Positions 13,717 to 19,545 of a stretch of 20,000 nucleotides of DNA are shown here, piece by piece (the stretch's first letter is position 1; every line of letters begins with the position of its first letter). Source of the DNA: Neocallimastix lanati (nom. inval.) (taxonomy: Eukaryota > Neocallimastigomycota > Neocallimastigomycetes > Neocallimastigales > Neocallimastigaceae); the NCBI GenBank assembly GCA_016946835.1, contig JACVTC010000129.1, forward strand, positions 30,001 to 50,000. Reading direction: 5' to 3'. Position numbers and translations under genes: made by a program. Below the pieces are notes generated by a model. It searched no databases and was not told the origin of the DNA. It worked only from the letters and a program-made list of their open reading frames with translations.

Positions 13717-13731
13717 TTTATAATTCTCCAT
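13717..13731 (+). repeat. Left target-site duplication of the SINE-like element
   Basis: TTTATAATTCTCCAT at 13717-13731 is repeated exactly at 14175-14189. The base before differs (A versus G) and the base after differs (G versus A), so the duplication is exactly 15 bp. It ends directly at tRNA position 1. Confidence 0.95.
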
Positions 13732-13738
13732 GCCATGT

Positions 13739-13750
13739 TGGTCCAGTCGG
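13739..13750 (+). promoter_or_regulatory. Pol III A box
   Basis: TGGTCCAGTCGG fits the consensus TRGYNNARNNGG at every defined position. It sits at tRNA positions 8-19. Confidence 0.85.
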
Positions 13751-13781
13751 TTAGGATGATACAGGTTACTGTAGAGGGCGG

Positions 13782-13792
13782 GGTTCGAATCC
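13782..13792 (+). promoter_or_regulatory. Pol III B box
   Basis: GGTTCGAATCC fits the consensus GGTTCGANTCC perfectly. It lies 31 bases after the A box, the usual tRNA-type spacing. Confidence 0.9.
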
Positions 13793-13805
13793 TCGGCATG
13801 GCACC

Positions 13806-13887
13806 AAATAATCGGATGAGGTTTCTATCCTATGATATCATGAGACCACACGTGATATTCATAAGGCTTTCCCTCAAATGATTATTT
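13806..13887 (+). ncRNA. Extended hairpin in the SINE body, directly after the tRNA head
   Basis: AAATAATC (13806-13813) pairs with GATTATTT (13880-13887). After a symmetric 3-nt internal loop, TGAGG (13817-13821) pairs with CCTCA (13872-13876). Further in, CCTATGATATCA (13829-13840) pairs with TGATATTCATAAGG (13853-13866) with two single-base bulges. Together they form one long rod-like stem closed by a 12-nt apex. The non-symmetric bulges make chance A/T palindromy less likely. Function is unknown. Confidence 0.65.
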
Positions 13888-14111
13888 CACCCAACCCTGA
13901 TACTACACTATGAATTGAAGCATAGACCTTGATGATTGTAATATTTCCAATCGCCAATGATTACACCCACTAGGGAGGAGTTAATGATTCCGTTCTGATG
14001 CTCGTGGTCATTAGAGATATATGTAGGAACGTTAGGAATGCATCTCCGGGCAGTGTATAACGACGATTGAGAGCGGCGAAGCTGATACAGTATGCCAATA
14101 ACTCATCACCT

Positions 14112-14163
14112 TACAGTTAAATAATAACTGTATGGCCATATTGAGAGATGGGTATCCAATATG
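14112..14163 (+). ncRNA. Two 3'-end stem-loops of the SINE
   Basis: TACAGTTA-AATAA-TAACTGTA (14112-14132) is a perfect 8-bp stem with a 5-nt loop. CATATTG (14137-14143) pairs with CAATATG (14157-14163) around a 13-nt loop. They lie just before the 3' end and could be the structure recognised by a partner reverse transcriptase. That role is inference. Confidence 0.6.
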
Positions 14164-14174
14164 TGCAGTCTATG

Positions 14175-14189
14175 TTTATAATTCTCCAT
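14175..14189 (+). repeat. Right target-site duplication of the SINE-like element
   Basis: TTTATAATTCTCCAT, identical to 13717-13731. It marks the 3' boundary of the inserted sequence. Confidence 0.95.
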
Positions 14190-17230: not shown

Positions 17231-19545
17231 TATTTATTAAAATGAGAATTTTTTATTAGGATATAAAATATATATATAAATATACAAATATTAATTATTA
17301 TTTAAAAAAAAAAAAAAAAAAAAATTTCTGTACCTTATTTCTGAAGGAGAATTTTGGTGAAGAATGTGTAACATATCCTGTTTTAACACTGTATGAATCT
17401 GGACTTGGGAATACAACTTTACGTGGCTTAACTGGACTAACTCTCTTTGTATTTTCTATATTAATTAATTATAAAAATAAAAATAAAAATAGAAATAAAA
17501 AGGAAAAAAAAAAAAAAAGTACGTTACATTAGTAATTCATTACATTATAAATATTAATATATTTCTTTTTTAATTCTTATAAAACTTCTATATAAAATAT
17601 ATAAGTATATGTAAAATACATACTCAAGGATTCCTCAACACTAACATATTCAGTAGATTGGAATCTTTGCTTCAAAGTGTAAGCTGGTGGTTCCTTCAAG
17701 TATACGTTATAATTAGTAGTAGCATAAGCTGCAGGTCCTGGAGAGATAGTAGAGGCTATTTACAAATCAAATAATATATTTATATATATTTATATGATTA
17801 ATTATTTATTTTAATATATTAAATTATTTTGTTTTAAATATTCTTCATAATAATATAACAAACTAAAATATTTTAAAGAAATGATAAAATTTTTTCTATC
17901 ATACATTTTAATTCTCTCTTTGGATTTATTGACCATGAAGGTGTACTTCCAATGGTTGTGGCACGTGAATATCTATTATGATGGAATAAAAATATGTATA
18001 TATATTTTTAGAAATATGAAATTATTATTTTTCTTTTTTTATTATAATATATATATGGATAATTACTGTGCAGGTCCTGGATTTGGATCAGCTATTTTTT
18101 ATCAAATTTTTGTGAATTATTTTTTTTTTTTATTTATTGAATTATTTATTGAATAATAATAATTATAAAAAGGTAAAAAAAATAATTATTATAATTAATA
18201 ATTTAATTCTGTATTTATGTATATATATTAGAATATAATTAAAGGCAGTATATATGTATATATATAAATTTAAGTACTTTTTAATGATTTTGTTCTTGAT
18301 TTCATTGAATAGGATGGGTTTTTCTTATAAATGGTATTACATGTTTGATCATAAGCACCTGGTCCTGGGAAATCAATAGCTTTTTAAGAAAAAAAAATAA
18401 TTATAAAAAAAAAAAAAGTTAGATTTTTTTTAAATAATTTTTTTTTATATATTTATATAAAATGCTATTGAATTAATATTTTATATTATTAAATATATAA
18501 TATATATATTTATATTTACTATCATTCTTGAATCCTTTTGTTTTCATTCTTAAAGAGTAAGCTGGTCTATTATATTGACCGGTACGACATACGGATGGGT
18601 AGAATTTATTTGGACTTGGGGAAACTAAATTTTATATATTTTTTTATTATTCATATTAAAAAAAAAAAATTAAAAAATTTTAATAAATTTATACTTCTCT
18701 TAATTATTCAAATATAAAATTTTATCAAAAATAAAAGATATATATATTATAATAATTACCAATTTCTATAATTTTAATAATTTATAAAACGTTTGTTTTA
18801 TAAATTTTATTATTTTTTATTTGTATAATTTATTAAATAAAGCCATAAAAAAGAATAAAAAAAATTAAAAAAGAAAAATTAATAATAAATATTATATTAT
18901 ATTTTATTACATTTTACAATAATTAAATATATTTATATATAAAATTTTATTTCATAAAATATATATACATATTTAAAAATAAAAAAAGATATTTACTTGG
19001 ATTTGGATCATAATAGATTCCAAAAGAATAGGCTGGTGCTCTTAATTTATATGATTTTCTTCCAATAGTAGTTGGTAATGAATAGGCAGCTGGTCCAGGT
19101 CCTTTTTTATTAATATTTTTTTTTGTTTGTTTGTTTTTACGTAGATATTTATTTTTAAATTTTTTATTTTTTATTAATTGATTTTTTTTTTTTTTTTTGA
19201 TTTATTTTTATATTTTTATTTTTAATTATTATTGATTTAAATATAATCATTATATAATTTTTTTTTTTTAAATATTATTAAAAAAATATATTTATATATA
19301 TAATATTTTAATATTTTAATTAATTTATTAATTTTAATACGAAATTATATTGAGAAAATAAAATAAAATTGTTTTTTTTTTTTATTTTCATTTTATATAC
19401 TATAAAATTATTTACCTTTTATTTTTGCTTGAATTGGATAATCCTTTGGTGGTTCAACAACAATTTGCTTTTTCTTTAAGTATTTTTTACTAGTTCCTTT
19501 AGCTGAAACATCTTTTTTAGAATCACTTTGTGGAGCTCCTTCCAT
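17151..19545 (-). CDS. PG-rich repeat (SHIPPO/ODF3-type) flagellar axoneme protein, 9 exons
   Basis: Exons in transcription order: 19545-19416, 19101-18997, 18624-18520, 18379-18278, 18091-18067, 17972-17905, 17755-17624, 17455-17334, 17195-17151. They total 834 nt (277 aa plus TAA), all with GT-AG introns and an unbroken frame. A Lys-rich N-terminus (MEGAPQSDSKKD) precedes PG-rich repeats: GPGPAAYSLP, SPSPNKFYPSV, FPGPGAYDQT, NPGPAQYSRATTIGS, SPGPAAYATT and FPSPDSYSVK. The ending is SEYELYVNDNAPN. Repeats also carry the usual P.YS(L/M/F) second half (for example RPAYSLRMK, SFRNK). The family binds microtubules in cilia and flagella, including sperm tails, and in a fungus implies flagellated zoospores. 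The length is typical of ODF3-like proteins (about 250 aa). The first ATG fits because the gene is intron-rich and the frame flows into exon 2. The exact paralogue is unknown. Confidence 0.93.
17196..19415 (-). other. Eight GT-AG introns of the PG-rich repeat gene
   Basis: Introns lie at 19415-19102 (314 nt), 18996-18625 (372), 18519-18380 (140), 18277-18092 (186), 18066-17973 (94), 17904-17756 (149), 17623-17456 (168) and 17333-17196 (138). Donors are GTAAAT (three times), GTACTT, GTAATT, GTATGA, GTATGT and GTACAG. Acceptors include AAAAAAG, ATTTAG, AAAATAG and TTTTAG. Six are phase 1. The fifth, inside a repeat, is phase 2, and the last is phase 0. Intron sequence is almost pure A/T, whereas exons contain balanced codons. 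Confidence 0.88.

Follow-up and report, generated by a model that had tools for sequence, protein, structure and literature searches.

Which kind of repeat is the GC-rich segment that interrupts a 20,000-nt stretch of the genome of the anaerobic gut fungus Neocallimastix lanati, and by what route did it get there? Within this stretch, which we refer to as the window (contig C34, nucleotides 30001–50000, of a 199-Mb assembly of 762 contigs), a preliminary description made from the letters had proposed an insertion of the short interspersed element (SINE) type with a tRNA as its source. We analyzed the element itself, its copies throughout the assembly and the LINE machinery encoded by the same genome. 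The results as a whole are best explained by a tRNA-derived SINE of about 400 copies that is now or very recently was mobile, carries a T tail and would be moved by LINE machinery, a reading to which we assign a probability of roughly 0.9. The testable defining features of a tRNA-derived SINE are all present, and transcription by RNA polymerase III (Pol III) and dependence on a LINE are predicted from the sequence.

Anatomy of the element in the window

The copy in the window extends from 13732 to 14174 on the forward strand, as do all its features given below, has a length of 443 bp and is flanked by perfect 15-bp target-site duplications at 13717–13731 and 14175–14189. The duplicated sequence TTTATAATTCTCCAT occurs exactly only twice across the whole window, starting at 13717 and at 14175, and the tRNA-like head starts at 13732, in agreement with the claim that perfect duplications abut nucleotide 1 of a tRNA. 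The claim of a GC content well above that of the surroundings was likewise borne out, with 42.7% in the element versus 12.4% in approximately 1 kb on either side. The head (13732–13806) comprises a 7-bp acceptor stem, the D, anticodon and T arms, a discriminator A and the trinucleotide CCA (13804–13806). It contains the A box TGGTCCAGTCGG (13739–13750) and the B box GGTTCGAATCC (13782–13792), both named in the preliminary description and both read from the letters by comparison with what we take to be the consensus; they would constitute an internal Pol III promoter.

The remaining part (13807–14174) is a body unrelated to tRNA, as defined by a full-length alignment of ten copies, and a search of a 501-base stretch gave no Rfam family besides tRNA at E values up to 1. 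Two hairpins lie close to its 3′ end. In hairpin 1 (14112–14132), which can be read from the letters and is also predicted for the subfamily sequences, TACAGTTA and TAACTGTA pair around AATAA. In hairpin 2 (14137–14163), to which letters, variants and prediction all point, CATATTGAG and TCCAATATG enclose AGATGGGTA, with one broken pair in the window copy. The element terminates in TGCAGTCTATG (14164–14174), and in most other scored copies an oligo(T) run follows directly after this end; in the window copy, the tail merges with the right duplication, the first TTT of which is indistinguishable from oligo(T). At 442–443 bp across two subfamilies, compared to approximately 80–500 bp for the class, and with a longest stop-to-stop frame of 64 amino acids, the element is short and non-coding.

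The statement that the element lacks an internal TTTT is true, T runs in the window copy reaching 3 nt at most. When the main-subfamily reference copy was shuffled by mononucleotide, TTTT was likewise missing from 638 of 5000 sequences, so that its absence carries little weight and, not being significant, was dropped as evidence. A pairing of the last 10 bases of the SINE with an internal CATAGAC was also dropped, as 168 of 2000 shuffles equal it.

Copy number, subfamilies and age

A sequence search of the assembly with the element gave 617 candidates, of which the 40 that were scored all show 96–100% identity. By pattern search with up to 3 mismatches, the 5′ 34-mer is found at 242 and the body 33-mer at 388 genome sites; the main 3′ 23-mer is found at 267 sites exactly and at 367 with up to 3 mismatches, and the 3′ 23-mer of the window type at 43 sites with up to 1 mismatch. 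Reversed-pattern controls returned 0 sites for every pattern (5′, body and both 3′ kinds), and three scans of viral contigs with exact SINE patterns likewise returned 0 matches. The family comprises about 400 copies, and the shortfall of 5′ ends relative to 3′ ends is consistent with 5′ truncation.

We examined 50 copies individually: (i) the 30 copies most similar to that of the window (L001–L030) and (ii) 20 copies from the pattern lists (L061–L080), 7 of which were chosen for the absence of a listed body match nearby. One copy without an intact 3′ end (L073) was dropped, leaving 49 scored copies; composed of best matches and pattern places, the sample favours young copies. The 5′ start coincides with nucleotide 1 in 33 of the 49 copies. 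The other 16 start at nucleotides 3, 19, 38, 38, 54, 98, 119, 119, 120, 120, 158, 169, 174, 174, 191 and 257, where starts 98 (L065) and 174 (L080) come from copies that later insertions have interrupted, which also holds for the dropped L073. Some truncation points recur, namely 38 in L061 and L062, 119 in L067 and L069, and 120 in L072 and L074; they are located just past the short anticodon loop and at the border between loop and 3′ arm of a predicted hairpin. RNA cleavage at fixed points or arrest of the reverse transcriptase could lie behind them.

Among the 33 copies of at least 435 bp, ten full-length copies are identical and reside on ten contigs with different flanks. The next identical group contains six copies, which represent four independent sites because L002/L006 and L003/L004 share flanks. 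With ten such identical copies in different surroundings, the SINE appears to have moved very recently, and judged by these sequences it is, or very recently was, mobile; identity among copies could also come from gene conversion. Two young subfamilies of 442 and 443 bp can be distinguished, with mean identities of 99.0% within and 96.1% between them. The window copy belongs to the 443-bp subfamily and shows 12 changes relative to its majority sequence, of which 8 are G-to-A or C-to-T transitions; it appears to be an older, decaying copy.

Origin of the tRNA-like head

With permissive filters on a 501-base stretch, the Rfam tRNA model (RF00005) matches over its full length at 13732–13803 (35.6 bits, E = 7.2e-6); the Rfam scan of the whole window with fast filters and ARAGORN on the window reported no tRNA. 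For the main-subfamily reference copy, ARAGORN predicts that nucleotides 1–75 form a tRNA cloverleaf, discriminator base and CCA included. The anticodon loop in this drawing is one base short and degenerate, and no isotype can be called. The CCA is invariant in the ten aligned copies, and the preceding base varies in one of them. Since to our knowledge CCA is not encoded by nuclear tRNA genes, a mature tRNA may be the source of the head: it probably derives from a mature, CCA-bearing tRNA that was fused to an unrelated body. It is also possible that the CCA arose by chance.

The tRNA-like fold of the reference copy would equally be expected if a cellular Pol III RNA with a head of this kind had given rise to scattered retro-pseudogenes, in the way that BC1 relates to the ID SINE. 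Ten identical full-length copies would fit such an origin from one or few functional source genes, and the family would then not be a SINE strictly speaking. Internal promoter boxes and a division into two young subfamilies represent SINE behaviour, and no Rfam RNA family fits the body; we consider the retro-pseudogene reading unlikely, even if it overlaps in practice with that of a SINE.

A search of the genome for tRNAs gave 9278 candidates. Of the 63 that were scored, 57 have exactly one and the same score, and the three that were read are tRNA-Arg(TCT). On a single contig (G000:C555:170732–399007) lie 34 of the 63 matches, several of them about 545 bp apart, an arrangement that suggests an array of strongly amplified tRNA-Arg genes.

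Target-site duplications and site preference

Of the 49 scored copies, 39 have flanking duplications with 10 or more net matches, at 37 distinct sites. When upstream and downstream flanks of different copies were re-paired (40 re-pairings), 0.4 duplications were obtained on average and never more than 2. The duplications are 12–19 bp long, apart from one 26-bp call with 2 mismatches. The ten copies below the threshold include L013 and L014, for which a simpler search gives duplications of 12 and 14 bp. The preliminary description had proposed a genome search for multiple copies with different duplications as its check, and had named a single copy, or copies within larger homologous blocks, as the outcome that would speak against a SINE. 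The many copies found, with different duplications around most of those scored, uphold its assignment to the tRNA-derived SINEs, and nothing of the opposing kind was seen save the shared flanks of L002/L006 and of L003/L004. These shared flanks would suit a segmental or satellite repeat, or a DNA transposon, in place of a retroposon; against any of these argue the 37 distinct flanks with duplications of 12–26 bp, the T tail, 5′ starts that lie up to nucleotide 257 inside the element, and termini (GCCATG… and …CTATG, read from the letters) that are not inverted repeats of each other, and we regard them as very improbable.

The simple-sequence 3′ tail of the SINE is oligo(T). Tails vary from 0 to 36 bases, some with a G, and at least one T extends beyond the duplication in 28 of the 39 scored copies, with 0 T in the other 11 under the scoring rule used. 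A T tail beside a target T biases base counts, and the control for site preference therefore includes the ambiguity of the tail: 300 insertion sets with T tails were simulated at randomly drawn flank positions. T is the first base of the duplication at 36 of the 37 sites, and TT its first two at 24, frequencies reached by 0 of 300 simulated sets in both instances. T at the second base (24/37) was reached by 4 sets and T at the third base (27/37) by none. On the other side of the junction, AA precedes the duplication at 20 of 37 sites (3/300), and an A stands two positions before it at 27 (2/300). The A directly before the duplication (27/37) is no evidence by itself, because 29 of 300 simulated sets reach the same value. 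Insertion prefers AA/TTT beyond what the tail artefact accounts for, and the T side of this preference is the stronger one.

3′ structure and the search for a partner LINE

For the last 73–74 nt of either subfamily, two hairpins are predicted (z = −2.1 in each case, a stability that 6 of 200 shuffles reach). The stem of hairpin 2 reads CATATGGG/CCCATATG in one subfamily versus CATATTGGG/CCCAGTATG in the other, a U and a G having been added at facing positions of the stem; bulged or mismatched variants occur in single copies. As the matched change is one event, structural support is modest, and to that extent the predictions favour a 3′ stem-loop conserved in both subfamilies. For the RNA in its full length, the predicted fold has no unusual stability (z = −1.3, with 11 of 100 shuffles as stable); it contains hairpin 1, and hairpin 2 is absent from it.

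A 3′ hairpin kept in both subfamilies by one matched pair, with its predicted z score, is what mobilization of the stringent type would lead one to expect, where a specific LINE has the last 50–100 bases of the SINE, its reverse transcriptase recognizes the 3′ hairpin and the T run is minor. The 11 of 39 scored copies without a T tail beyond the duplication point in the same direction. This route is a tentative possibility, and the counts of 3′ ends and the search for the LINE itself weigh against it.

LINE-type endonucleases (PF14529) have at least 78 matches in the genome (150 scored of 485 candidates), in frames of up to 1481 amino acids and one of 2973, some exceeding the cut-off only together with their neighbours. 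Since such matches in long frames exist, possible mobilizing machinery is present. Four regions downstream of these endonucleases, not all of which reach the 3′ end of the LINE, have nothing longer than 11 bases in common with the SINE. Two of them share a stretch that ends in poly(A), TTCTCTTCTTAGT plus an A run, and their common 3′ end (L082:989–1052 and L084:763–827; GTATTCTCTTCTTAGT plus the A run) is 86% identical; this is the end of an A-tailed retroelement, unlike that of the SINE.

We also followed the 3′ end of the SINE itself. On contigs C1–C94, 83 exact places of the 3′ 23-mer are listed. An exact body match is listed close to 73 of them; three of the other ten show a 5′ end where its spacing predicts one, and seven were read. 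This check covered 83 of the 267 exact places, the remainder being 17 listed on later contigs and 167 outside the list. A 3′ 16-mer, with 100 of 301 places listed, contributed 11 more; no body match is listed for 8 of them, and 4 of these 8 were read. All 11 of the 3′ ends read in this way (7 by 23-mer, 4 by 16-mer) belong to SINE copies that are older, mutated or 5′-truncated, and exact 3′ ends as a lead to a partner LINE were rejected. The number of 3′-end sites (367 + 43) is close to that of body sites (388), without a clear excess of 3′ ends, so that a LINE sharing this end could hardly be numerous; a rare or diverged one is possible. A search for reverse transcriptases (RVT_1, 150 scored of 5028 candidates) was dominated by matches of about 160 residues, many in frames of 1335–1336 residues, which are most likely Ty3/gypsy-like and were set aside as a lead.

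The expectation that a LINE would share the last 50–100 bases or so of the SINE was thus not confirmed in the part of the genome examined. Of the related proposal, that the lack of a poly(A) tail points to 3′-structure-dependent retroposition, the retained 3′ hairpin stands, whereas the tail argument gives way to the oligo(T) run, and the LINE that it calls for was not found in the same part.

Proposed mechanism

The preferred reading of a LINE-mobilized, T-tailed SINE can be put into a sequence of steps. Pol III would start at nucleotide 1, directed by the A and B boxes, and stop in the T run, yielding an RNA that ends in U residues. A LINE endonuclease would nick the lower strand of the target, leaving a 3′ end …AAA, which could pair with the U tail and serve as primer in target-primed reverse transcription. 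The target-site duplication would come from a second, staggered cut, and the 3′ hairpins may aid the LINE reverse transcriptase in recognizing the RNA. The usual Pol III U tract is shorter than some of the SINE tails. Because tails of up to 36 bases exceed this tract and some contain a G, slippage or read-through must be added to the model.

We tentatively propose that the Pol III terminator of the SINE may itself be the priming site, its U tract pairing with the A-run 3′ end cut by the LINE endonuclease at AA/TTT, and that this may possibly be the main route here. Mammalian L1 and Alu have an A tail and a nick at TT/AAAA; the T tail and AA/TTT of the SINE described here are the complement of both. 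Alu and L1, of the relaxed, poly(A)-primed type (a type also treated in PMC3747384), resemble the present family in combining a homopolymer tail with a nick at an A/T junction. If our proposal is true, a terminator-primed SINE would be the mirror image of L1/Alu, operating in an AT-rich anaerobic fungus and needing neither poly(A) nor a common 3′ sequence. Because hundreds of young copies reveal their target sites, tails and truncation points, the family is a possible test bed for the priming of T-tailed SINEs. With ten identical copies, it could also serve as a strain marker.

Comparison with known SINEs

The stringent SINE/LINE pairs of eel and of plants and algae have, according to the same study (PMC3747384), a stem-loop near the 3′ end, as does the SINE described here; unlike in these pairs, no LINE with the same 3′ end was found here in the part of the genome examined. 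Fungal SINEs are covered by another study: Foxy of Fusarium oxysporum has approximately 160 copies, a tRNA-derived SINE apparently of M. grisea approximately 100, and AfuSINE2 of Aspergillus fumigatus, 140–493 bp long, has a low copy number and duplications of 4–14 bp (PMC5063351). Like Foxy, MgSINE (Magnaporthe) and AfuSINE2 as described there, the present family combines a tRNA head with Pol III boxes, an unrelated body, duplications and a copy number in the range from low to a few hundred (PMC5063351). It differs from these three ascomycete elements, on comparison of descriptions and not of sequences, in its neocallimastigomycete host and its oligo(T) tail. Poly(T) is named among known SINE tail types in the plant annotation literature (PMC8825457), where the tail type is alike and the host kingdom different. 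The available passages on the wheat Au SINE describe SINE 3′ regions as A- or AT-rich, with short repeats or poly(A), and do not name T (PMC5787218).

Our literature search, which covered titles, the beginnings of abstracts and partial texts, with subscription papers, Repbase, SINEBase and Dfam outside its scope and with three result lists cut at 20 of 5951, 15 of 502 and 12 of 21 entries, found SINEs from plants, a green alga, animals and ascomycetes; among the entries listed, none was from anaerobic gut fungi, and none described a SINE in Neocallimastigomycota or other early-diverging fungi. The suggestion that few SINEs are known from early-diverging fungi and that the family is undescribed agrees with this search, and we grade it as probable: the family is genuine, recently active and probably undescribed.

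Neighbouring elements and host genome

Several SINE copies have themselves served as targets. At L080:682–1981, a copy is split by a 1.3-kb element with direct terminal repeats of 193–196 bp that are 99.5% identical; its TG…CA ends and a CTTTG duplication are read from the letters, and by its sequence it would be a small, young LTR element. Two further copies (L065:8119–8679 and L073:627–1312) are split by elements that are related to each other (approximately 73% identical), inserted in opposite orientation and bounded by AAACAAATATG-type ends. Another relative lies upstream of the SINE at L018:213–647, and these three elements are MITE-like. The window itself contains a foldback element at 1799–2471, with two 257-nt arms that are 99% complementary, a 159-nt spacer and a GC content of about 0.31, above that of its surroundings. 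One 24-base piece of it had no exact match in 91 loci.

For comparison of base composition, the GC content of N. californiae is given as 18.2% in one report (PMC11003543). The fungal-dockerin domain PF02013 exceeded the cut-off in all 150 scored matches (of 1440 candidates) and in none of 14 control genomes; these are, as far as named, bacteria and archaea, so that the comparison says little. Fungal dockerins mark anaerobic gut fungi (Neocallimastigomycota), and together with the very low GC content and flagellar-type repeats in the window they indicate a host of this group. On the reverse strand of the window, at 17298–19201, three pieces with Sperm-tail PG-rich (SHIPPO) repeats are encoded, two of the three just below the Pfam cut-off. 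SHIPPO is a flagellar-type repeat, and these pieces would fit a zoospore-forming fungus.
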